Source: Microbacterium esteraromaticum
GTDB taxonomy: Bacteria; Actinomycetota; Actinomycetes; Actinomycetales; Microbacteriaceae
NCBI RefSeq assembly: GCF_014084045.1
Contig: NZ_CP043732.1
Span: forward strand, 3,162,001 to 3,226,000
Length of the DNA: 64,000 nucleotides
Direction: 5' to 3'
Shown: positions 5,779 through 53,628 of the stretch, piece by piece
Position numbering within the stretch: the first letter of the stretch is position 1
Layout: each line of letters opens with the position of its first letter
Program-made: the position numbers and the translations under genes
The notes under the pieces: model-generated
Told to the model about the DNA's origin: nothing
Databases searched by the model: none
What the model saw: only the letters and a program-made list of their open reading frames with translations

Positions 5779-5883
5779 GGTGCTGTAGCCACCGGCGGGA
5801 CGACCCGGCGGACAGATCACACGCGGGGACGGCCCCGCAGATCGGCTCGCACCGTGACCCGTTCCGACCTCCTGCGCTCGGTT

Positions 5884-39371: not shown

Positions 39372-41422
39372 ATGACCGAGGCCGTGAATCCGCTCCTGTC
39401 CCCCTCGACGCTCCCCTACGGGATGCCGGACTACGCGGCCATCCGGCCCGAGCACTACCTGCCCGCGTTCCGCGCGGCTTTCGACGAGCACCTCGCCGAG
39501 GTCCGCGCGATCACGGTGAAGCGATCGATGCCGACCTTCGAGAACACGATCGAGGAACTGGAGCGCAGCGGCGAGTTGCTCGATCGCGTCGCCCACGCCT
39601 TCTACACCGTCAGCTCCGCCGATGCGACGGCCGAGATCCAGGAGGTCGACGAGCAGCTCGCCCCGCTGATGGCCGCGCACGACGATGCCGTCCGCCTCGA
39701 CGGCGCCCTCTACTGGCGGGTGTCACAGGTGCATTCGGCGCTCGATCAGCTCGAGCTCACCGCCGAGCAGCGCTACCTCGTGCAGCGGCACTTCCGCGAG
39801 ATGACCCATGCAGGTGCGGCGCTCGACGACCAGGCCAAGGCGCGACTGACCTCGCTGAACCAGCGCCTCTCGACGCTCAGCACGACCTTCGAGAAGAACC
39901 TGCTGAACGACACGAACGACCTCGCCGTCGTCTTCGACGAGGTCGCCGACCTCGACGGCCTCTCCCCCGGTGAGCTCAGCGCTGCGGCGCGCGCCGCGAG
40001 CGAGCGCGGACTGGGAGGTCGCTACCTGGTGTCGCTGCCGCTGTTCAGCGGGCACCCGTACCTGGCATCCCTCACCGTGCGCGAGAGCCGCAGGCGCATC
40101 ATGCAGGCGTCCCTCACCCGCGCCGCGCGTGGAAACGAGCACGACAACCGGGCGGTGCTCGCCGAGATCGTCGCGCTGCGCGCCGAGCGCGCCGCGCTGC
40201 TGGGCTACGACTCGCACGCCGCGTACGTCACCGCGGACGAGACGGCCGGCTCCCCGAGGCTGTGGAGCGGATGCTGCGCGAGCTGGCCGTTCCCGCCGCG
40301 CGCAACGCGCATCGCGAGGCCGCGGCTCTGCAGCGGATCATCGACGAGACCGAGGCCGAGCCGTTCACCCTCGAGGCGCACGACTGGGCGTTCTGCACCG
40401 AGAAGGTGCGTCAGGCCCGCTACGACATCGACACCGCGGCCCTGCGATCGTACTTCGAGGTCGAGCGCGTCCTGCAGGACGGTGTCTTCTTCGCCGCCAC
40501 GAAGCTCTACGGGGTCACATTCACCGAGCGCCCCGATCTGGTCTCGTACCACCGTGGCGCACGGGTGTTCGAGGTGCATGACGAGGACGGTGCCGCCGTC
40601 GGCGTCTACGTGCTCGACCTGTACACGCGCGACTCCAAGCGGGGCGGTGCGTGGATGAACCCGATCGTGAGCCAGTCGGCACTGCGCGGCACCCTGCCTG
40701 TGGTGGCGAACAACCTCAACGTGCCGCAGCCTGCAGACGGCCTGCCCACCCTGCTGACCCTCGACGAGGTGACCACGCTGTTCCACGAGTTCGGTCACGC
40801 GCTGCACGGGCTGTTCGCCCGGGTCACCTACCCTCATTTCTCCGGCACGAACGTGTTCCGCGACTTCGTCGAGTTCCCGAGCCAGGTGAACGAGATGTGG
40901 ATCCTGTGGAACGAGGTGCTGAGCAGCTACGCGCGCCATCACGAGACGGGCGAGCCGCTGGATCCGGCGATCGTCGAGCGGCTGCGCGCATCCGAGACCT
41001 TCGACCAGGGGCATGCGACCAGCGAGTACCTCGCGGCGGCGTGGCTGGATCAGGCCTGGCATCGTGTCGGCCCTGACTTCGTCGCAGAAGATGTCGCCGA
41101 GTTCGAGCGCGCGGCCCTCGATGACGTCGGACTGCTCGATCCCGTCGTGCCGACGAGATACTCGTCGGCGTACTTCGCGCACATCTTCTCGGGCGGATAC
41201 AGCGCCGGCTACTACTCGTACATCTGGAGCGAGGTGCTCGACGCCGACACAGTGGAATGGTTCCATGAGAACGGAGGTCTGACCCGCGAGAACGGCGACC
41301 GCTTCCGCCGACGGCTGCTCGGCGTCGGCGGCTCGAAGGATCCGCTGGACGCGTACCGCGACTTCCGCGGCCGGGACGCGGAGATCGCTCCCCTGCTGAA
41401 GCGCCGTGGGCTGGATGGCTGA
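39372..41422 (+). pseudogene. M3 family metallopeptidase (Dcp-like), frameshifted
   Basis: Oligopeptidase or peptidyl-dipeptidase of about 683 residues after repair. The first frame runs from MTEAVNPLLSPSTLPYG through SLTVRESRRRIMQASL to ADETAGSP. At the C run 40252-40255 it breaks and resumes in the next frame as EAVERMLRELAVPAARN. The second part holds the zinc site FHEFGHALHG, FVEFPSQVNEMW and the substrate tyrosines in GGYSAGYYSY. One more C in the run of four joins the parts. All catalytic residues survive, so the gene may well be intact in the real genome. Confidence 0.87.
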
Positions 41423-41991: not shown

Positions 41992-43260
41992 TCAGGCGCT
42001 CTTGCGCTTGCGTGAGAGCACCACGGTCGGCGGGGCGCCCTCTTCGACAGCTGCCTTCGTGACGACGACCTTCGAGACGTCCTCCGCTGAGGGGATCTCG
42101 AACATGATCGGTCCGAGCACGTCCTCGAGGATCGCGCGGAGTCCGCGCGCACCGGTCTTGCGCAGCACCGCCAGGTCGGCGATGGATCGCAGCGCGTCCT
42201 CCTCGAACTCGAGCTGCACGCCGTCGATCTCGAACATGCGCTGGTACTGCTTGACGAGCGCGTTGCGCGGGCCGGTGAGGATGTCGATCAGGGCATCCTG
42301 GTCGAGCGGCGAGACCGAGGTGACGACGGGCAGTCGCCCGATGAACTCGGGGATCAGCCCGAACTTGTGCAGATCCTCCGGCAGCACCTCGCTGAAGAGG
42401 TCGAGGTCCTTGCCCTTGTCGTGCAGCGGTGCGCCGAAGCCGACGCCGTGCTTGCCGACGCGAGCCGAGATGATGTCCTCCAGGCCGGCGAACGCGCCCG
42501 CCACGATGAACAGCACGTTCGTCGTATCGATCTGCAGGAACTCCTGATGCGGGTGCTTGCGACCGCCCTGCGGGGGCACGGAGGCGACTGTGCCCTCGAG
42601 GATCTTCAGCAGCGCCTGCTGCACTCCCTCGCCGGACACATCGCGGGTGATCGACGGGTTCTCGGCCTTGCGGGCGATCTTGTCGATCTCGTCGATGTAG
42701 ATGATGCCGGTCTCGGCGCGCTTGGTGTCGTAGTCGGCAGCCTGCAGGAGCTTGAGCAGGATGTTCTCGACGTCTTCGCCGACGTAGCCCGCTTCGGTGA
42801 GCGCGGTCGCGTCCGCCACCGCGAACGGCACGTTCAGCCGCTTGGCGAGGGTCTGTGCGAGGTAGGTCTTGCCGCAGCCGGTCGGGCCGAGCATGAGGAT
42901 GTTGCTCTTGGCGACCTCGACCTCTTCGGCCTTCTGCTCTGCGGTCTGGATGGTGCCGCGGGCGCGGACGCGCTTGTAGTGGTTGTAGACGGCCACGGCG
43001 AGCGAGCGCTTCGCGGCCTCCTGCCCCACGACGTACTCCTCGAGGAACGAGAAGATCTCGCGCGGCTTGGGGAGCTCGAAGTCGGCGACCGGACCGGCGC
43101 CGGCCTCTGCCATGCGCTCTTCGATGATCTCGTTGCACAGCTCGACGCATTCGTCGCAGATGTAGACGCCGGGGCCGGCGATGAGCTGCTGCACCTGCTT
43201 CTGGCTCTTTCCGCAGAAAGAGCACTTGAACAGATCAGCGCTTTCACCGATGCGTGCCAT
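41992..43260 (-). CDS. clpX: ClpX, ATPase subunit of Clp protease
   Basis: AAA+ unfoldase of 422 residues that feeds substrates to ClpP. The N-terminal zinc domain has CSFCGK and ICDECVELC. Walker A is [13 protein letters not shown] and Walker [11 protein letters not shown]; the pore loop is GYVGEDVEN and the ClpP-binding IGF-type loop is not fully identifiable by eye. The sensor region [14 protein letters not shown] is present. It is not next to clpP2, which lies 10.6 kb away on the same strand. A TACGCT -10 box lies at 43299-43304. Confidence 0.97.
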
Positions 43261-43398: not shown

Positions 43399-45027
43399 TC
43401 AGCCGCCCCACCGGCGGCGGACGAGCTGCTCGGCCATCGAGGCGAGGCCGTACAGCGCGAGGGACGACACCGTGATCGCGACCACGCAGGCCCACACGCT
43501 GGTGTTGTCGGAGCGGCCGATCGCCGAGACGATCGCGTAGCCCAGCCCGTTGCCGGTGGCCAGCCACTCTGCGAGCAGAGCGCCGCCGATGGCGCCGGGG
43601 ATCGCGATCCTGATCGACGAGAACAGCGCCGGAAGAGCGGCGGGCACCCGCGCCAGGCGCATGACCGTCGTGCCCCGACCGCCGTACACGCTGATGAGGT
43701 CTGTCAGCTGGGGCGGGGTGCTGCGCAGGCCCATCGTCAGGTTCACCAGTGCCGGGAAGAAGACGACGAGGCCTCCGATCACGGAGAGCGTCATGATGTC
43801 GCGGCCGAAGATGAGGATGACGATCGGCGCCAGGGCCACGAGCGGCACCGAACGCATCATCATCGCGAGGGGCATGATCGCGAACTCGAGCGGCGGGACC
43901 AGCACGAACAGCACGGCCACGATCGCGGCGACCCCGAGACCCGCGCCGAAGCCGATCGCCGCGTGTCCGAGTGTGACCGCGGTGTCTGCGCCGATCTGCG
44001 CCCGGTTTACGGCGGCCTCCTCTGCTGTGAAGAAGTGCGCGATCACCTCCAGAGGCCCCTTGCCGACGAATGGAGAGACCCCGAATACCCGGAGCGCGAG
44101 ATCCCACAGCACGACGAGCAGCGCGACCGTCGCGATGCTCGACGCGATCGCGCGCCATCCCCCTGCTCCGCGGAGCGCGTCGTCGGCGCCGAATCCCGCC
44201 GTGGTGCTCTCTGCCACGAGGCCGACGGCGCGTGCGAGCCTCTCGAGCAGCCCGATCACGGCGAAGGAGACACCCGCGATCGCCGCCGCGACGATCGCGA
44301 CGCCCCAGGTCCGCTCGACGTCCATGTTCTGCTGGGCGTTCACCATGGCGGGTCCCAGTCCCCGGTCGACCCCGCCGACGTACTCACCCAGGATCGCGCC
44401 CAGGAGGGCACCGGGTGCCGCGATCTTCAGAGCGCTGAAGATCGAGGGCAGCGCGGAGAACACCTGGACCTTGCGCAGTCGGGTCGCGGCTCCGCCGCCG
44501 TACGCGGTGACCAGATCGAGCGCGCGCCGATCCGCGGATCGGAAACCGAGCAGCGCATTGATGACCGTGGTGAAGAACACGGCGAACGCCGCGAGCACCA
44601 CGGCGGTGCCGGAGGGGCCCCCGCCGCGCGGTGCGCCGACGAGCAGGTAGACGATCGGGCCGATCGCGACGATGGGCACGCAGTAGCTGATGACCGCGAT
44701 CTGCACCACGAACCGCTCCGAGATCGGGAGCACGAGTGCCGTCGCCGCCGCGACCAGGCCGAGACCGACCCCTATCGCGTAGCCCTGCACGGCCTCGAGC
44801 ATCGTGACGGTCGTGTTCGGCACGTAGAAGGCGAACCCGTCCTGCACCAGCTGCGCCACGACCGCCGGCGGCGTCGGGATCGTCCCCGCCGCTGCGAGCG
44901 GACCCGCGGCGAGCATCCACCAGACTGCGACGATGCCGAGGGTGCCGAACACTCCGACCAGACGGGGGTCGAGGCGGCGACGACGTGCGCTCGGGGCTCC
45001 GGTGGCGATCGCGACGGTCGCGCTCAT
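43399..45027 (-). CDS. ABC permease with two fused permease modules (NMT1/SsuC type)
   Basis: Membrane protein of 542 residues consisting of two BPD permease modules of about 260 residues in tandem. Each has its own EAA-type loop: [21 protein letters not shown] in the first and [21 protein letters not shown] in the second. Each is preceded by periplasmic-loop motifs of the SsuC/TauC/ThiX family. One polypeptide can therefore form the whole channel. It overlaps the ATPase gene by four bases. It is the last gene of the operon. Confidence 0.9.
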
Positions 45028-45866
45028 CGAGCGCTCCCGTCGGAGGGCAGCCCGTTGCGCTCCTCGAAGAGCAGCTCGGTGGCCTCGTCGACCAGGGCGT
45101 GGAACTCGGGCGATCGCATCAGCTCAGGGGTACGCGGGCGAGGCAGGTCGATCTCGAGGATCCTCTTGACCCGGCCGGGACGCGCGCTCATCACGGCCAC
45201 ACGGTCGGCGAGGAAGATCGCCTCCGTGATGCCGTGCGTGACCAGCAGGGTGGATGCCGGCTTGGCTGCGAGGATGCGCTGCAGTTCCAGGTTCATCCTC
45301 TGCCGCGTCATGTCATCGAGCGCACCGAAGGGCTCGTCGAGCAGCAGCACCGAGGGCTGGACGGCCAGTGCTCGCGCGATCGAGACGCGCTGACGCATTC
45401 CGCCGGACAGCTGCGCCGGCTTCGCGTTCTCGAAGCCCTTCAGGCCCACGAGGGCGATCAGCTCGTTGAGCTCGTCGCGATCCACGTCGACGCCGGAGAT
45501 CTCCAGCGGCAGGCGCACGTTGGCGTACACGCTGCGCCACGGCAGCAGAGCGGAGTCCTGGAAGGCGATGCCCATCTGGTGCGCGGCGCGGATCCGCGCG
45601 GGGTCCTCTCCGTGCACGAGGGCGGAGCCGGATGTCGGCTCGTCGAGTCCGGCGAGGATCCGCAGGATCGTCGACTTGCCGCACCCCGAAGGCCCCAGCA
45701 GTGCGAGCAGCTCGCCGCGTCGCGTCGACAGCGAGACGTCCGACAGTGCGACCACCTCCTTGGCACCGCGGCCGAACCGCTTGGTGAGGCCGGTGAGTGT
45801 GAAGCCCTCGCCCTGCTGCTGCGTGCTCGCGGTCACATCGCGGATGACGTCGGCGGCGGCGCTCAC
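45024..45866 (-). CDS. ABC transporter ATP-binding protein (SsuB/TauB/ThiZ type)
   Basis: ATPase of 280 residues. Walker [15 protein letters not shown]-loop [14 protein letters not shown], signature [13 protein letters not shown], Walker [14 protein letters not shown] and the switch His in [10 protein letters not shown] are all intact. The family serves importers of sulfonates, nitrate, pyrimidine precursors and similar small molecules. Overlaps both neighbours by ATGA-type junctions. Confidence 0.93.
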
Positions 45867-46906
45867 TTGGTCACCTTCAGAAGCTCGGGGTTCTCCTCGT
45901 AGATCTCCTCGAGAAGGGACATGTCGAACAGGTCCTCGGCGTCGATGTCGACGCCCGCGTAGCCGATCGCCTGGATGTTCGCGTCGATCTGCTCAGGGGT
46001 GAGCAGGAAGAGTCCGCTCTCGCGGATCGACTCCGGATACACGTAGTCGTTCTGCATCTCGGCCTGCGCCGCCTCCTTCTCGGGGTTCAGACCGAGGTCG
46101 GAGCCGTACTCGGTCAGCGTGAGCTCGACGCCGGCCTGCGGGTCGGCGATGGCGTCCGTCCACCCCTGGATCTCCGCCATCAGGAACGCCTTGATGCGCT
46201 CGCGGTCCTTGGCGATCGCCTCGTCGGTGACGATGAAGCTGGTGCCCGCGAACGGCAGTCCGTTCTCGGCCAGCGGCAGCGAGACCACCTCGGCTCCCTG
46301 CTGCTCGAGGACGATGCGCTCGTTGGTGTCGAGGCCGAAGTATCCGTCGACCTCACCACCGGTGAGCAGGGCCGGGTTGCCCTCGGCCGGCACGAAGGTG
46401 ATGCTCGCGGGGTCGATGTCGTTGGCGCGGGCGAGCGCCTCGACGATGATCTGCGCGGTGCCGGCGGTGACGCCGATGCGCGCGCCCTCCAGGTCGGCCG
46501 GAGTGCGGATGGCGTCCGGTCCTTCGATGGAGAGGATCGTGAAGGCGTTGCGCTGGTAGACCGATCCGACGATCTTGACGGGCATCTTCTCCTTGGAGAT
46601 GACGTTCGCCGCAGTCAGCGCGGTCGAGAAGCCCACGTCGGCCTTGCCGGAGGCCACCGAGGCCTCGACGGCCGTGGGGCCGGCGATCAGGTCGACGCCG
46701 GTGAATCCCTCGTCCAGGTAGTGGCCTTCCGAGTCGGCCAGGTACTCCCCGATGTTCTGGGAGTTCTTCACGAACGAGAGCTGCAGCGCCAGGTCGCCGT
46801 ACGACCCCTCGCCATCGCCCGCCGGTGCGGAGCAGCCGGCGAGGCCGAGGGCGAGGATCGTCGCGGATGCCGTGGCGAGCAGGGCACGGGAGCGGATGGA
46901 CATCAT
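45863..46906 (-). CDS. NMT1/THI5-like substrate-binding lipoprotein
   Basis: Solute-binding lipoprotein of 347 residues. The lipobox is [31 protein letters not shown] is the typical first segment (split here), then [20 protein letters not shown] and [17 protein letters not shown]. Members of this group import thiamine pyrimidine precursors, riboflavin, nucleobase-like compounds or sulfonates. The two adjacent ATGs at 46906 and 46903 follow an AAGGAG site. Located 38 bases after the LOG-like gene. Confidence 0.9.
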
Positions 46907-46944
46907 TGTTCTCCTTGCGGGGGTTCGGGTTGTGTGGAGGAGGT

Positions 46945-47523
46945 TCAGTTGCCGGCGTGGCCGAGGTGGGCGACGAGCCCGCCCTCGCGGCGAGGACGCG
47001 AGACGGCCGCGAGCGCCTGCGCGACGGCGTCGGCGGGATCGGTGGCGAACTCGATCTCGGAGGTGCGCCGCTCGTCGAGCCAGCGCTGCTCGATGAGCGA
47101 CAGCTCGATGCGGTCGGACCACCCGCCCGTGCCGCGAAGAACGATGACCGGTGTGCCGACGTCGTAGGCGATGGTGAGCTCGTTCAGGGTGCCGACGCCC
47201 CCGCCGACCATGATCAGGGCATCGCAGCAGCGGGCGGTGAGCACATTGCGCATGGTGCCCATGCCGGTGGGAAGGGCGACGTCGAGGTGGGGGTTCGCGT
47301 GACTGTAGTCGGCCTGGGGCAGGAAGCCGATGACGAAGCCGCCCGCGCTCTGCGCCCCCTCGGCGGATGCCTCCATCACGCCGCCCGTGCCGCCGTTCAC
47401 GAGTACGGCGCCGGCCTCGGCGATACCGCGACCCACGTCGCGAGCTGCCTGCAGCAGCTCGGCGGGCAGCTCGACACCGGGGCGGGCGGCATTGCCGATC
47501 ACGCCGATCGTGGTCTTCCTCAT
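46945..47523 (-). CDS. LOG/TIGR00725-like Rossmann protein
   Basis: A 192-residue protein of the lysine-decarboxylase-like (LOG) superfamily. Features: NGGTGGVMEASAEGA, then GTMRNVLTARCCDALIMVGGGVGTLNE, which keeps the Arg and the GGGxGTxxE motif used by LOG phosphoribohydrolases to cleave nucleoside monophosphates. It is closer to the TIGR00725 branch, whose activity is not established. It overlaps the PfkB kinase gene by ATGA, which suggests a shared pathway. Confidence 0.82.
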   Translation of the reverse strand: MRKTTIGVIGNAARPGVELPAELLQAARDVGRGIAEAGAVLVNGGTGGVMEASAEGAQSAGGFVIGFLPQADYSHANPHLDVALPTGMGTMRNVLTARCCDALIMVGGGVGTLNELTIAYDVGTPVIVLRGTGGWSDRIELSLIEQRWLDERRTSEIEFATDPADAVAQALAAVSRPRREGGLVAHLGHAGN

Positions 47524-48515
47524 AGCGGGGTCACTCCTTCTCGGATGCGGGCGCAATCGGCCAGCCATCGCTCTTCATCGGGTCTGGTCAGGGCAAGAGG
47601 GCTGGCGACATGGAGAGCACGGCTCGCCGCCACGGTGGCTTCGACGGCGGCCTCGACCAGCGCGGCGCCCGTGGTGCGCACGTGTGCGAAGACTCCGCAG
47701 AACACGTCGCCCGCGCCGGTCGCATCGAGGTGCTCGCCCACGGGGAGAGCAGGGATCGACCAGGCCTCTCCGGTGTGCGCGTCGGAGACGATCGCACCGT
47801 GCTCGCTGCGCTTGAGCACGACCACGGGCGCGCCGTAGTCGTGGAAGCGGCTGATCAGGTCGCGATGAGGGATTCCGGGTGCGAACACATCGGTGTCGGA
47901 GCTGCTCGGAAGGAACACGTCCAGGTCGCGCAGGTGGGTGCGCAGCACCGCGTCGCCGTCCCGACGCAGCTCGAACCGCGCAGGGCAGTCGGCCTGGATG
48001 CTGGACGCACCGCCTCCGCGCAGCGCGGCGACGAGCTCGCCGAAGCGCGCCCCCGGCAGCAGCCCGAGGTGCCAGGCTCCGCCCCGGCCCGCAGCGGTGC
48101 GCACCGTGCCGGCGTCGGGAAGCGACGCGAGCGTGAGAGATGTGTCACGGGTCGTGTCGGCGAACTCGGGCTGCACGGCATGAGGCAGCACCGCGACGGC
48201 ACCGGCGGGCGCCGGCTGCGAGCGCGAGCCGTCGGTGAGGTATTCGAAGGTGACGCGCGCGTTACGCTGCTGCGTCCTGCGCTGGACCGCGGTGACGTCC
48301 ACCCCGTGAGCGCTGATGTCGGCGAGCGCATCGGCCGGATAGTCATCGCCCACCACGGCGTGGGCGACAGGGCAGCCGTGAGCCAGCGCGGCGACGCCTG
48401 CAGCCGCCCACAGCGCGTTGCCACCGAGCTGTCCGGTGACCCACGATCCGTCGGCGCGGATGATCGCGTCGATCGTGAATCCGCCGACGATGTGCACGGG
48501 GCTCGCTGCCTGCAC
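47520..48515 (-). CDS. PfkB-family carbohydrate/nucleoside kinase
   Basis: Ribokinase-fold kinase of 331 residues. The N-terminal VGGFTIDAII and QLGGNALWAAAGVAAL match PfkB signature 1, and the catalytic HLDATGAGDVFCGVFAH (general base Asp) is signature 2. The family phosphorylates sugars and nucleosides; the sequence alone does not choose. The start is a GTG at 48515 with an AAAGGAG site. First gene of the operon with the LOG-like protein and the transporter, divergent from a GntR regulator. Confidence 0.88.
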   Translation of the reverse strand: MQAASPVHIVGGFTIDAIIRADGSWVTGQLGGNALWAAAGVAALAHGCPVAHAVVGDDYPADALADISAHGVDVTAVQRRTQQRNARVTFEYLTDGSRSQPAPAGAVAVLPHAVQPEFADTTRDTSLTLASLPDAGTVRTAAGRGGAWHLGLLPGARFGELVAALRGGGASSIQADCPARFELRRDGDAVLRTHLRDLDVFLPSSSDTDVFAPGIPHRDLISRFHDYGAPVVVLKRSEHGAIVSDAHTGEAWSIPALPVGEHLDATGAGDVFCGVFAHVRTTGAALVEAAVEATVAASRALHVASPLALTRPDEERWLADCARIREGVTPL

Positions 48516-48601
48516 TGGCCGCTCCTTTATACAAAGTGACTACAATGTCTAATGCTCGACAACATACTACACATTGAGACCGAGAGTGAAGCACTGACAG
48601 A
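48516..48601. promoter_or_regulatory. Divergent control region between PfkB operon and GntR gene
   Basis: AT-rich 86-base gap. ACTACA occurs twice in direct orientation (48539-48544 and 48566-48571). CAATGT near 48543 and ACATTG near 48571 form an inverted pair. TACAAT (48541-48546) is a possible plus-strand -10 box. Likely binding site for the GntR/UTRA protein. Confidence 0.45.
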
Positions 48602-49330
48602 ATGACGTTCATGCAGCTGCCCCCGGTGCGAGATCGCCGCCCGCTCGCCGTGCAGGTCTACGACCGCCTCTTCGATGCGCTCTCGCGCAGCGACGACAGA
48701 ACGGGGGCCCTTCCCACCGAAGAGGAGCTCACCCGACAGCTCGGCGTCAGCCGCACCACCGTCCGCCAGGCCCTCGCGCTCCTCGAGGAGGACGGGGTCA
48801 TCGAACGCGGACCGGGCAGGCGGCGACACGTCGCGGGCACCGCACCCGCCACCGACGGCACGGTGCTGCCGCTCGAGGAGACCGTGCGCACCGCGAAGAA
48901 GGTCGTCGTGCGCCGTATCGCGAGAACGGTGTCGCCCGCGACCGAATGGAACTCCCGGCTGCTCGACATCTCGCGCGGCGACGAGATCTGCACGTGGGAG
49001 AGCGAGATCGTCGTCGGCGGCAAGGTTCTGGCCAGCGCTCTCGAGTTCATCCAGGCCGGTCACGAACCGGCGCCTCAACTCGAAGAGGCGACGATGTACG
49101 CGCAGCTCGGGTCGCAGTACCGCACGAAGGCGACGCTCGCATCACTGCGGCTGTCGCCGTACATCACCGACACCAGACGCTTCGGACGCGGGCACTCCGG
49201 CAACCTCCTCACCGTGACCTACACGACCCGTGCACCCTCGAAGCCGCTCTATCTGGCCAAGCACGTCATCGACATCTCCGCCATCTCGATCGAGCTGCTG
49301 GCCGGCGCCGCGTCGAGCGTCGAGGACTGA
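48602..49330 (+). CDS. GntR/HutC-family transcriptional regulator with UTRA domain
   Basis: Regulator of 242 residues. The winged helix is LAVQVYDRLFDALSRS and LPTEEELTRQLGVSRTTVRQALALLEEDG. After it comes a UTRA effector domain (about residues 85-235). HutC-type regulators bind sugars, sugar phosphates or related metabolites. The divergent position strongly suggests that it controls the PfkB-LOG-transporter operon. A terminator follows. Confidence 0.88.
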   Translation: MTFMQLPPVRDRRPLAVQVYDRLFDALSRSDDRTGALPTEEELTRQLGVSRTTVRQALALLEEDGVIERGPGRRRHVAGTAPATDGTVLPLEETVRTAKKVVVRRIARTVSPATEWNSRLLDISRGDEICTWESEIVVGGKVLASALEFIQAGHEPAPQLEEATMYAQLGSQYRTKATLASLRLSPYITDTRRFGRGHSGNLLTVTYTTRAPSKPLYLAKHVIDISAISIELLAGAASSVED

Positions 49331-49394: not shown

Positions 49395-50246
49395 TCACAC
49401 CATCGACTTGGTGTGCCACACCGTCTTCGTCTCGGTGAACGCCGTGATCCGGTCGAGGCTCGGCTCTACCGTGCCTGGTCGGAGGACGCGCTTGAGCGTG
49501 TCGGCCGCGGCGATCTCGAGGTCCACCCAGTCGAGGGCGCCCGCGCCCGCGAGGTCGAGCGCGTTCACGTCGGCGTGAGATGCCAGCCACGGAGCGATCT
49601 CGGCCGGTGAGCCGGTGAGCACGTTCACCACTCCCCCTGGCACATCACTGGTCGCGAGCACCTCGGCCAGGCTGATCGCCGACAGCGGGAATCGCTCGCT
49701 CGCCACGACGACCACCGTGTTGCCGGTGACCAGAGCCGGCGCGATCGCCGAGACCAGACCGAGCAGCGCCGAGTCCTGCGGTGCGACCGTCGCCACGATG
49801 CCGGTGGGCTCGGGCACGGAGATGTTGAAGTACGGGCCCGACACGGGGTTCGCGTTCCCGCCGACCTGCGCGTACTTGTCGCACCAGCCCGCGTACCAGA
49901 CCCACAGGTCGATGGCTGCATCGACCTGTGCTCCCGCGGCGGCGGCGGAGCCGCCCTCCTGGTCGACGATCTCGTCGACGAACTGCGCACGGCGGCCCTC
50001 GAGGATCTCCGCCACCCGGTACAGCACCTGACCGCGGTTGTAGGCGGTGGCTCCCGACCAGCCCTTCACGGCCGCACGCGCCGCGACGACGGCGTCCCTC
50101 GCGTCCTTGCGCGATGCCTTCGCGGCGTTCGCCAGGAAGGCGCCCTTCGGCGAGACGACCTCATAGGTGCGCCCCGACTCGCTTCGCGGGAACGCGCCGC
50201 CGATGGCCAGCTTGTAGGTCTTCGGAACGGTGAGACGCTTGCTCAT
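49395..50246 (-). CDS. Truncated aldehyde dehydrogenase-like protein, no catalytic cysteine
   Basis: A 283-residue protein with the N-terminal NAD-binding part of the aldehyde dehydrogenase fold (PEPTGIVATVAPQDSALLGLVSAIAPALVTGNTVVVV in pieces, then VPGGVVNVLTGSP). The chain ends before the position of the catalytic Cys loop, and the usual PWN and LELGGK motifs are missing, so it cannot be an active dehydrogenase alone. The reading frame is clean, so this is not decay. It starts four bases before the end of the full-length enzyme gene. It may be a partner or structural subunit. Confidence 0.82.
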   Translation of the reverse strand: MSKRLTVPKTYKLAIGGAFPRSESGRTYEVVSPKGAFLANAAKASRKDARDAVVAARAAVKGWSGATAYNRGQVLYRVAEILEGRRAQFVDEIVDQEGGSAAAAGAQVDAAIDLWVWYAGWCDKYAQVGGNANPVSGPYFNISVPEPTGIVATVAPQDSALLGLVSAIAPALVTGNTVVVVASERFPLSAISLAEVLATSDVPGGVVNVLTGSPAEIAPWLASHADVNALDLAGAGALDWVDLEIAAADTLKRVLRPGTVEPSLDRITAFTETKTVWHTKSMV

Positions 50247-51685
50247 GCCGAGGCTCCCTTCAGGTACGCGGTCAGCCCGTGGCGGCCGCCCTCACGGCCG
50301 TAGCCGGACTCCTTGTATCCGCCGAACGGGCTCGACGGGTCGAAACGGTTGAAGGTGTTCGCCCACACCACACCGGCGCGCAGCCGGTCGGCGACCGCGA
50401 GGATCCGCGAGCCCTTGTCGCTCCAGATCCCGGCGGAGAGCCCGTAGGGCGTGTTGTTCGCCTTCGCGATGGCCTCGGCGGGCGTGCGGAAGGTCAGCAC
50501 CGACAGCACGGGGCCGAACACCTCGTCGCGGGCGATGCGATGCGATGCCTCCACGCCGGTGAAGATCGTCGGCGCAAACCAGAAGCCCTTCTCGGGGATG
50601 GCGCAGTCCGCGGTCCAGCGCTCTGCGCCCTCGGCCTCGCCGATCTCGCTCAGCTCGCGGATGCGCGCCAGCTGAGCTGCGGAGTTGATCGCGCCGATGT
50701 CGGTGTTCTTGTCGAGCGGATCGCCCAGCCGCAGCGTCGACAGGCGGTGCTTGAGCCGGTCGACGACCTCGTCGTGGATTGACTCCTGGACGAGCAGCCG
50801 GCTGCCGGCGCAGCACACGTGGCCCTGATTGAAGAAGATGCCGTTCACGATGCCCTCGACCGCCTGATCGATCGGCGCGTCGTCGAAGACGATGTTCGCC
50901 GCCTTGCCGCCGAGCTCGAGGGTCACCTTCTTGTTCGTGCCCGCGATCGCCTTGGCGATGTCGCGACCGACGCCGGTGGAGCCGGTGAACGCCACCTTGT
51001 CGACGTCCGGATGACGGACCAGGGTCGCACCCGTGGCGCCGGCGCCGGTCACGATGTTCACCACACCCGCCGGCAGGTCGGCCTGCTGCAGGATCTCGGC
51101 GAAGATCAGCGCGGTGAGCGGGGTCGTCTCGGCGGGCTTGAGCACCACGGTGTTTCCCGCGGCGAGAGCCGGGGCGACCTTCCACGCCAGCATGAGCAGC
51201 GGGAAGTTCCACGGGATCACCTGTGCGGCGACTCCGAGCGCCTTGGGGTCGGCACCGAGGCCGGCGTAGTCGAGCTTGTCGGCCCATCCTGCGTAGTAGA
51301 AGAACCACGACGCGACGAGCGGCACGTCCACATCGCGGCTCTCCTTGATGGGCTTGCCGTTGTCGAGGCTCTCGGCGACGGCGAGCTCGCGGGCGCGCTC
51401 CTGCACGAGTCGCGCGATGCGGAACAGGTACTTGCCGCGGTCACGACCGCTCATCTTCGACCACACCTTGTCGTGAGCCCGCCGAGCAGCGGCGACGGCA
51501 CGGTCGACGTCCTCGTCGGACGCCGAGGCGATCTCGGCGATCCGGCTCTCGTCGGCGGGCGAGATGGTGTGGAAGCTCGTGCCGGAGCCGTCGACGAACT
51601 CGCCGTCGATGAACAGGCCGTAGCTGTCGTTGAGGCGCAGGATCGCCTTGGACTCCGGCGCGGGAGCGTATTCCAGGAATGACAT
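50243..51685 (-). CDS. Aldehyde dehydrogenase family protein
   Basis: NAD(P)-dependent dehydrogenase of 480 residues. Catalytic residues are in place: N160 (IPWNFP), E258 (LELGGK) and C291 (GHVCCAGSR). The C-terminal motif EVFGPVLSV follows. In the deoC operon it probably oxidises the acetaldehyde made by the aldolase to acetate, or an aldehyde of similar origin. The start at 51685 lies nine bases after the deoC stop. Confidence 0.92.
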   Translation of the reverse strand: MSFLEYAPAPESKAILRLNDSYGLFIDGEFVDGSGTSFHTISPADESRIAEIASASDEDVDRAVAAARRAHDKVWSKMSGRDRGKYLFRIARLVQERARELAVAESLDNGKPIKESRDVDVPLVASWFFYYAGWADKLDYAGLGADPKALGVAAQVIPWNFPLLMLAWKVAPALAAGNTVVLKPAETTPLTALIFAEILQQADLPAGVVNIVTGAGATGATLVRHPDVDKVAFTGSTGVGRDIAKAIAGTNKKVTLELGGKAANIVFDDAPIDQAVEGIVNGIFFNQGHVCCAGSRLLVQESIHDEVVDRLKHRLSTLRLGDPLDKNTDIGAINSAAQLARIRELSEIGEAEGAERWTADCAIPEKGFWFAPTIFTGVEASHRIARDEVFGPVLSVLTFRTPAEAIAKANNTPYGLSAGIWSDKGSRILAVADRLRAGVVWANTFNRFDPSSPFGGYKESGYGREGGRHGLTAYLKGASA

Positions 51686-51694
51686 GCGGGGCTC

Positions 51695-52696
51695 CTAGTC
51701 GATGGTCACGTAGTCGGGGCCGGAGTAGTGTCCGGAGGTGAGCTTCTGGCGCTGCAGCAGCACGTCGTTGAGAAGGCTGGAGGCGCCGAAGCGGAACAGG
51801 TGGGGCTGCAGCCACTCCTCGCCCGCGGTCTCGGCGACAGTGACGAGGTACTTGATCGCATCCTTTGACGAGCGGATGCCGCCTGCCGGCTTCACGCCGA
51901 TCTTCTCGCCGGTCGCACGGTGCCAGTCGCGCACGGTCTCGAGCATGAGCAGCGTGGTCGGAAGCGTGGCCGCCGGCTGCACCTTGCCCGTGGACGTCTT
52001 GATGAAGTCGCCTCCTGCGAGGATCGACAGCCACGATGCGCGCTTGATGTTGTCGTAGGTGTTGAGCTCACCGGTCTCCATGATGACCTTGAGCGAGGCG
52101 TAGCTGCCGTCCTCACGGCGACACGCCTCCTTCACCTGGGCGATCTGGTCGAACACGAAGCCGTAGCGTCCTTCGAGGAAGGCCCCCCGGTCGATGACCA
52201 TGTCGATCTCATCTGCTCCCGCGGCGACGGCATCCGCCGTGTCGGCCAGCTTGATCTCGAGCGACGAGCGTCCTGACGGGAAGGCCGTCGCGACGGCGGC
52301 GACCGAGATCCGGCCGTCGTCGGGGTCGCCGTGCAGATCGCCGAGTGCCTCGACGGCGTGGCCGACCATGTCGCCGTACACGCAGACCGCGGCCACGAGC
52401 GGGGTGCCGGAGTCGGCGGCATCCGGGTTCTTCGCCTTCGCGACCAGCGAGCGCACCTTGCCCGCTGTGTCGGCCCCCTCGAGGGTCGTCAGGTCGATCA
52501 GCGAGATGATCCTGTCGAGCGCCCATGCCTTCGACGTGGTCTTGATCGAGCGCGTGCCGAGCCCGGCCGCGCGCTGCTCCAGGCCGACGGCGTCGACGCC
52601 GGGCAGCCCGTGCAGGAAGCGTCGCAGGGTCTGGTCATCGGGCTCACCGCCCAGGACGTCGACCGCACTGCGGCGGGCCAGTTCTGTTGTCGTCAC
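51695..52696 (-). CDS. deoC: Deoxyribose-phosphate aldolase
   Basis: Class I aldolase of 333 residues splitting 2-deoxyribose-5-phosphate to glyceraldehyde-3-phosphate and acetaldehyde. The Schiff-base lysine is K233 in FIKTSTGK, with K270 in GVKPAGGIR as the second active-site lysine. It is longer than the 259-residue E. coli enzyme, with an extra N-terminal helix region of about 60 residues. The GTG at 52696 overlaps the regulator stop (GTGA). Confidence 0.94.
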   Translation of the reverse strand: MTTTELARRSAVDVLGGEPDDQTLRRFLHGLPGVDAVGLEQRAAGLGTRSIKTTSKAWALDRIISLIDLTTLEGADTAGKVRSLVAKAKNPDAADSGTPLVAAVCVYGDMVGHAVEALGDLHGDPDDGRISVAAVATAFPSGRSSLEIKLADTADAVAAGADEIDMVIDRGAFLEGRYGFVFDQIAQVKEACRREDGSYASLKVIMETGELNTYDNIKRASWLSILAGGDFIKTSTGKVQPAATLPTTLLMLETVRDWHRATGEKIGVKPAGGIRSSKDAIKYLVTVAETAGEEWLQPHLFRFGASSLLNDVLLQRQKLTSGHYSGPDYVTID

Positions 52697-53628
52697 TTCT
52701 CCTCCAAGAGTTCACGGGCGGTGGATTCGTCGGTCACCAGGATGCTGCACAGCCCGTTGCTCACGACTGTGCGAGCGATGTCGTGCTTGGCAGCACCGGC
52801 TGTGACGAAGATGGATCGGGGCGCGGCGCGCAGCTGATCGAGTCCGACGCCGACGGTGCGGGCGTCGAGGCGGGGGTCGACGATGTTGCCGTCGGCATCG
52901 ATGTAGCGGCCGAGCAGGTCTCCGACGGCGCCGCGGCGCACCAGCTCCGCGATGTCGTCACTGGTGAGATAGCCGTTCTCGACGTGCGCGGATCCGGCAT
53001 CGGCGGGCCCGGCGGTGAACAGGAACGTGTTCGCCCCCGCAGCCTGCTCGAGGATCGCGGCGACAGTGCGATCGGACTCGATCGCACGTTTGGTCTCGAC
53101 CCGCTCGAGGATCGCGGGGCTCGGCAGCAGCACCGCCTGGCCTCCACCGCGCTGCGCGATCGTGGCGGCGACGGACGCCGCACCACCGGCCCGCCGGTTG
53201 AGGCTCACGCCTCCGTTCGCCTGAACGACGGTGACGCCACGTGTCCAGCCCTCCGGCAGGGCATCGGCGATAGCTGTGAGGGTGCGACCCCAGCTCACGG
53301 CGAGGGTGCGCGGCACGGGGCGAAGGGCGGTGAGCATGTCGGCCGCGGCTCGCGCGACGCGCTCGAGCACGGCATCCTGCTCGTCGGGGGCGGGGACGAC
53401 GACGGCGTCGCGCAGCCCGAACCGCTCGACGATGGCCCTCTCGAGGCCCAGTCGGCGCGCTCGCGGGTGCACGATCTCTATCCGCACGATGCCGAGCTCC
53501 CTGGCCTGCACGAGCAGCCGTCCGACCTTCCAGCGCGAGATGCCGAGGAGGGCGCCGATCTCGTCCTGCGTCTTGTTCTCGTCGTACGAGAGCTCGGCGA
53601 CACGCACCATGAGCAGTTCGTCGTCCAC
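52693..53628 (-). CDS. SorC/DeoR-type sugar-binding transcriptional regulator
   Basis: Regulator of 311 residues. The N-terminal helix-turn-helix is VAELSYDENKTQDEIGALLG with ISRWKVGRLLVQARE, typical of SorC family members. The large C-terminal sugar-phosphate-binding domain has VSWGRTLTAIADAL, VVQANGG and FVTAGAAKHDIARTV. By analogy with Bacillus DeoR it may sense deoxyribose-5-phosphate and control deoC. The start is a GTG at 53628 behind a strong AAGGAGG site; a TAAGCT -10 box lies at 53649-53654. Confidence 0.88.
   Translation of the reverse strand: MDDELLMVRVAELSYDENKTQDEIGALLGISRWKVGRLLVQARELGIVRIEIVHPRARRLGLERAIVERFGLRDAVVVPAPDEQDAVLERVARAAADMLTALRPVPRTLAVSWGRTLTAIADALPEGWTRGVTVVQANGGVSLNRRAGGAASVAATIAQRGGGQAVLLPSPAILERVETKRAIESDRTVAAILEQAAGANTFLFTAGPADAGSAHVENGYLTSDDIAELVRRGAVGDLLGRYIDADGNIVDPRLDARTVGVGLDQLRAAPRSIFVTAGAAKHDIARTVVSNGLCSILVTDESTARELLEEK

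Follow-up and report, generated by a model that had tools for sequence, protein, structure and literature searches.

A kinase-LOG gene pair with exchangeable importers in Microbacterium esteraromaticum: a probable cassette for nucleoside uptake and breakdown

The window analysed here comprises 64,000 nt of the Microbacterium esteraromaticum genome (GCF_014084045.1, NZ_CP043732.1, positions 3,162,001-3,226,000, forward strand; 3.37 Mb, single contig). Between clpX (41992-43260, minus strand) and a deo-type operon (49395-53628, minus strand) it carries a six-gene cassette, which probably serves the regulated uptake and breakdown of a nucleoside by import, 5'-phosphorylation and LOG-type cleavage. 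This function is supported by genomic context and protein fold, from which we infer the reactions, the ligand and the direction of regulation. In the proposed route, a nucleoside (or deoxynucleoside) would enter through the NMT1-type ATP-binding cassette (ABC) importer and be phosphorylated at its 5'-OH by the PfkB protein; the LOG-like protein would then split the resulting 5'-monophosphate at its N-glycosidic bond by hydrolysis, giving the free base and (deoxy)ribose 5-phosphate. Ribose 5-phosphate would enter the pentose phosphate pathway, the deoxy form the neighbouring DeoC/aldehyde dehydrogenase (ALDH) route, and the GntR protein, bound at an operator in the divergent promoter, would keep the operon repressed in the absence of the ligand. 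The cassette consists of the following features.

48602-49330, plus strand: regulator of the GntR family, transcribed away from the kinase operon (PF00392, 49.6 bits)
48546-48562, minus strand: predicted operator TTGTCGAGCATTAGACA, lying in the 86 bp between the divergent regulator and kinase genes
47520-48515, minus strand: PfkB/ribokinase-family kinase (PF00294, 48.3 bits, cut-off 25.8; best stretch residues 216-300)
46945-47523, minus strand: LOG-like TIGR00725 protein (TIGR00725, 141 bits, cut-off 106.9; PF18306, 141 bits)
45863-46906, minus strand: NMT1/THI5-type substrate-binding lipoprotein (PF09084, 113.6 bits, cut-off 20.5, scored on a sequence with three extra codons at the start)
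45024-45866, minus strand: ABC importer ATPase, overlapping both neighbours (PF00005, 119 bits)
43399-45027, minus strand: ABC importer permease in which two BPD_transp_1 domains are fused (PF00528 twice)

The kinase was found in 14 genomes (13 at E <= 1e-40 and G1155 from a tblastn scan), and in 12 of these the LOG-like gene is the next gene after it (the window and loci L091, L092, L093, L096, L104, L105 and L111-L115). Kinase and LOG-like genes overlap by 4 nt (ATGA) at 10 of the 12 loci, the window included, and two rhizobial loci show gaps of 14 and 16 nt. A first-pass annotation of this DNA had made its proposal depend on conserved linkage to the kinase, which these loci bear out. The kinases of G1179 (2.3e-60) and G1348 (1.8e-49) have no LOG gene within the 20 kb read; their scores are lower than that of the weakest genome with the pair in a like search (2.1e-97). 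Open reading frames (ORFs), sequence and family matches also agree with the minus-strand operon of PfkB, LOG-like protein, lipoprotein, ATPase and fused permease described in that annotation. The cassette is more than a chance assembly because the identical gene order recurs in L113, L114 and L096.

The importer next to the pair is exchanged between loci. NMT1-type importers adjoin it in the window, L096, L113 and L114, and BMP-type importers in L091, L104, L105, L111 and L112 (4/12 and 5/12, respectively). At the remaining three loci no importer adjoins directly: the nearest ABC set of L092 reads as a sugar importer on the opposite strand, the set of L093 lies some kb off with an ATPase and a permease matching those of the window (6e-56, 3e-17), and the pair of L115 is near a contig end. 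The BMP class was measured by domains in L105 (PF02608 'PnrA-like' binding protein, 220 bits, with PF02653 permeases) and assigned by phmmer elsewhere. Closest solved chains to the L105 binding protein were BmpA (167 bits), 'Lipoprotein' (6yab and kin, 153 bits), tmpC (150 bits) and BmpD (134 bits), of which we take tmpC and the 6yab group to be PnrA proteins. BmpA is reported to bind thymidine, then cytidine and adenosine, with Phe27 and Phe176 essential (PMC13325309), and BmpD is described as the binding protein of a nucleoside importer (PMC7093131). By our own residue equation (alignment offset 6), Phe27 and Phe176 correspond to the Phe of GFN and of GSF, present in all five BMP proteins. 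Moreover, in G1021, which belongs to another family, a nucleoside hydrolase (PF01156, 268.7 bits) ends a window-type operon on the same strand. Judged by its sequence, the substitute importer of the five loci is of the nucleoside class. The sequence of import, phosphorylation and base release put forward in the first-pass annotation gains from these importers and this hydrolase, as it does from the place of LOG behind the kinase.

The window's own lipoprotein has a lipobox LAGC within its signal peptide (by eye); its start was read as the first ATG of ATGATG, preceded by AAGGAG. Nitrate/sulfonate-type subfamily models score under their cut-offs for the ATPase. The lipoprotein's closest solved chain is 4nmy (47 bits), and its match to NMT1/THI5 together with THI5/THI13 chains at 35-37 bits would suit a system that imports and phosphorylates a pyrimidine of the thiamine type or some other small heterocycle, as in ThiXYZ/ThiD. 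Such a role is highly improbable, given that the window's four Rfam matches at gathering score include no thiamine pyrophosphate (TPP) riboswitch, that the kinase matches PF00294 only in Pfam and that 5/12 relatives use a BMP importer instead. Besides NMT1/THI5, no thiamine family was found among the six operon proteins (Pfam, NCBIfam; thiamine genes were not searched in the relatives).

For the regulator, a GntR/UTRA protein had been annotated. The GntR domain and the divergent orientation were confirmed, and a UTRA domain was not found among 16 Pfam matches at E <= 0.01; the best NCBIfam match was HutC at 38.7 bits vs a cut-off of 220. A homologue of the regulator is present at 9 of the 12 loci. 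Within the window, a motif drawn from two rhizobial BMP-type loci alone, TTGTTGAACAATRGACA, finds its one best match between the GntR and kinase genes, with 3 mismatches against 5 for the runner-up. No other match has <= 3 mismatches, and none occurred in 100 shuffles. The cluster promoter likewise holds the best match of the whole locus in L091, L111 and L114 (2 mismatches each), in L113 (3) and in L112 (3, a four-way tie), the sites of L091, L111 and L112 touching or lying slightly within the kinase frame called from the first start codon.

A degenerate form of the motif was searched at <= 1 mismatch in nine genomes with a reversed control. In the window's own genome (G000) the operon site matches perfectly, and a single further site with 1 mismatch lies elsewhere (C1:2523584); G1458 and G1539 have a site at the operon only, and G1021 has none. 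G1628, G1575 and G093 show an extra site about 2 kb off, ahead of a reductase gene (1, 1 and 0 mismatches), and in L111 and L112 a monooxygenase/amidohydrolase unit starts at this site too. In G1155 and G1156 sites ahead of reductase and kinase were accompanied by scattered 1-mismatch matches. The reversed control gave no match in seven actinobacterial genomes and three in each rhizobial genome, so single-mismatch matches in the latter carry little weight. Because the degenerate pattern was built from the sites, its matches at the clusters arise by construction, and the independent test of the operator is the rhizobial-only motif. The same predicted operator motif therefore accompanies both types of importer and spans two phyla, and we propose that the GntR protein binds it as a common operator.

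The best fold matches of the kinase were nucleoside kinases and ribokinase. Residues D16, N33 and D270, the last being the catalytic Asp of the GAGD motif, are conserved in all 12 kinases. Of the PsuK ribose contacts N14, D16 and N45, the kinases keep D16 and N33, N33 being equated with N45 by motif and not by structural alignment, and the N14 position is Ser/Thr in 12/12. We propose that the PfkB protein is a nucleoside 5'-kinase. A sugar kinase of a free-sugar or sugar-acid pathway, with LOG handling a by-product, is very unlikely, since the importer directly behind LOG is NMT1- or BMP-type at all nine loci that have one there; LOG and the nucleoside-class partners likewise speak against a sugar pathway.

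The LOG-like protein belongs to TIGR00725, a 'hypoth_equivalog' to which no activity is attached; this lack of an assigned activity had been named as the weakest point in the first-pass annotation, and it stands. By spacing and alignment, R92 and E115 correspond to the catalytic pair R99 and E122 of CgLOG, and both are conserved in 45/45 rows of alignment A2 and in 12/12 pair LOGs. Instead of the LOG motif PGGxGTxxE the protein has GGGVGTLNE. A GGGxGTxxE motif is reported for a LOG of Sulfolobus islandicus, which is titled a phosphoribohydrolase in a reference list (PMC8234997). The protein is proposed to be a nucleoside 5'-monophosphate phosphoribohydrolase.

Several observations weigh against a nucleoside kinase-hydrolase pair. 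The parallel divergence of its members (pairwise identities of 12 kinases vs 12 LOGs, r = 0.88; 0/9999 permutations as high) can come from common descent alone. Exclusivity of the pair is challenged by at least 575 LOG relatives vs at least 80 kinase relatives among the matches listed in a protein search. In L096, the best motif match (6 mismatches) is not at the cluster promoter, which leaves a promoter match in 6/7 loci tested, and the genus also has deoC genes in genomes that lack the cassette. Ribokinase fits the kinase nearly as well as the nucleoside kinases, its match lying within 1.5 Z. For the LOG-like protein, the cytokinin phosphoribohydrolase model CtkRMPhLog (NF058542) gave 43.9 bits, under its cut-off of 300, and the base-site Lys and Glu of LOGs are invariantly Asn and Asn. 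Proteins binding molybdenum cofactor (Moco) are nearer to it in fold than LOGs and provide the closest solved folds after TM1055, and the Moco carrier 2iz5 also keeps the catalytic Arg and Glu. These last points would fit a nucleotide- or cofactor-binding, Moco-carrier-like protein with no hydrolase activity in a cassette that only imports and phosphorylates, which we consider unlikely. A hydrolase is better suited by the constant place behind the kinase, the nucleoside-class importers and the one nucleoside hydrolase, and the S. islandicus LOG bearing the same GGG variant is titled as an enzyme.

The kinase is rare. With alignment A1 (28 rows picked from the window plus 80 hits) and a threshold of E <= 1e-40, it was found in 4/398 family genomes and 6/295 genus genomes, the own genome included each time. 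At the level of the order, 3/396 genomes matched at E <= 1e-30, one of them (G963) weakly, and at the phylum level 5/396 at E <= 1e-25, namely the own genome (1.9e-137) and four weak ones (1e-26 to 1e-28), in two of which the relative lies next to a gene resembling methylthioadenosine phosphorylase (by eye). A tblastn genome scan with the kinase alignment gave at least 80 loci, of which L003 and L004 (39% over >300 residues) were followed; a plasmid search with the rhizobial kinase relative P0059 gave no match. Searches for the LOG-like protein at E <= 1e-40 found it in 1/133 and 1/129 genomes, each time the centre genome, and in none of the 260 others, a result that shows rarity and says nothing on linkage to the kinase.

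In L113 and L114 the cassette has the same position as in the window, between clpX and a short ALDH gene (ALDH1). In 8 of 16 other genus genomes bearing ALDH1, clpX adjoins it directly, which is the unoccupied arrangement; the remaining eight have neither clpX nor cassette genes inside the 1.5-kb flank. The cassette is a sporadic add-on.

The deo-type operon on the other side of the cassette, located on the minus strand, is composed as follows.

49395-53628, minus strand: short ALDH, full-length ALDH, DeoC (TIGR00126, 157 bits, cut-off 117) and DeoR/LsrR-type regulator

The short ALDH (49395-50246, 283 aa) covers roughly the first half of the ALDH profile and adjoins the full-length ALDH. Proteins of 283-289 aa are found in L113 and L114 too, and an ALDH1 homologue beside a full-length ALDH is present in 17/29 genus genomes, the own included. 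DeoC and ALDH as a dedicated part of the cassette were rejected on this distribution and on the eight genomes with clpX adjoining ALDH1. In G1021 the window-type operon faces GntR-DeoC-ALDH-ALDH, and given this adjacency DeoC/ALDH are neighbours and a possible downstream route.

The BMP-type clusters contain further enzymes. An aldo/keto reductase is found in all five. L105 encodes a reductase and a Rieske oxygenase (PF00355, PF19112) whose closest matches are SxtDIOX/SxtT (142 bits) and two methylxanthine N-demethylases, NdmA (121 bits) and NdmB (117 bits). ORFs matching this Rieske protein are present in L111 and L112 and an ORF with PF19112 in L091, and only the reductase was called in L104. 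L111 and L112 also encode an amidohydrolase that comes closest to 5'-deoxyadenosine deaminase, with scores of 409 and 413 bits, both under the cut-off of 522. A flavin monooxygenase of L111 reached 423 bits for TIGR03860 (cut-off 279.7), its L112 counterpart being recognised by eye, and the promoter of this NtaA/DmoA-type oxygenase and the amidohydrolase bears the same operator motif as the kinase operon.

Because these clusters add oxygenases, the substrates may be modified purine nucleosides. Tentatively, the kinase-LOG pair could be the core of a route for such nucleosides from RNA or DNA turnover, e.g. N-alkylated adenosines (methylated, or prenylated as in cytokinin ribosides), in which the odd base would be removed from the trapped 5'-monophosphate before it reaches the nucleotide pool. 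Stripping of this base in BMP-type clusters would next fall to oxygenases of the Rieske (NdmA/SxtT-like) or NtaA/DmoA type together with the deaminase-like amidohydrolase, and the Asn/Asn LOG branch would act as a selectivity filter. For the amidohydrolase there was no match at E <= 1e-20 in G1458, G1539 and G361, and only relatives of 29-36% in G000, G155 and G1021, so the window-type hosts do not clearly share this step. Breakdown of a substituted purine base would be in keeping with the additional enzymes; the window cassette is without them, so this may not hold there.

Some neighbourhoods of pair or kinase relatives were noted in addition. In G155 (L093:9491-19607) a hint of purine ring breakdown comes from the surroundings of the pair, which include an ABC set, an allophanate hydrolase/AtzE-kind amidase, a ureidoglycolate-lyase-like protein and, by eye, a flavin monooxygenase. 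In G1348 (L101:4228-11349) two PfkB kinases are found, with no LOG, among hydantoin racemase-, allantoinase-type deacetylase- and SIS-like genes (by eye). Weak PfkB relatives adjoin a gene reading like methylthioadenosine phosphorylase (by eye) in L088:1483-3276 and L090:1474-3277.

A defence role of the SLOG-type protein was rejected. PADLOC matches of LOG (PsyrA, 23 bits, about 50 residues), the ATPase (mad3, 99; mad8, 31; AriA, 20 bits) and the regulator (Csa3, 20 bits) were read as shared ATPase or DNA-binding domains, and the other three proteins had none. Elsewhere in the window, a peptidase-like gene near clpX (39372-41422, oligopeptidase type by eye) is split into two overlapping frames of 428 and 386 aa. 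Its counterparts in L113 and L114 are single ORFs of 683 and 684 aa; the two-frame state is a frameshift or a sequencing error. A guanidine-II riboswitch match at 5792-5837 is barely above its gathering score (33.2 vs 32).

A description of a kinase-LOG operon was not found in titles and abstract starts of the open-licence literature, and the name TIGR00725 was absent from the literature searched. Among known systems, the deo pathway uses a phosphorylase and a phosphopentomutase, whereas the cassette would release the sugar 5-phosphate directly; DeoC/ALDH adjoin it in the window, L113, L114 and G1021. BMP/PnrA-type nucleoside importers replace the importer at 5/12 kinase-LOG loci, whereas the window's own is NMT1-type. 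The LOG cytokinin enzymes and PpnN share fold, catalytic Arg and Glu positions and the GGxGTxxE motif with the cassette protein, which differs in its score (43.9 vs 300 bits), GGG for PGG, the Asn/Asn base site and the coupling to a kinase and an importer. Moco carriers, among its closest solved folds after TM1055, differ in that the cassette has a nucleoside-type gene context. In the PsuK/PsuG system, as reported in PMC9247573, a PfkB-family kinase makes a nucleoside 5'-phosphate and a second enzyme frees the base and ribose 5-phosphate. No PsuG-type pseudouridine-5'-phosphate glycosidase was matched among the six operon proteins in Pfam; here the second enzyme is of the LOG/TIGR00725 family, and the cassette has its own importer and GntR regulator. 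By analogy, the cassette would follow the logic of pseudouridine kinase and glycosidase with a second enzyme of another family. Since the pair also turns up in distant bacteria beside another importer, one of the nucleoside type, TIGR00725, a family with no assigned activity, gains a testable job: a concrete, easily assayed candidate reaction with a known partner enzyme.

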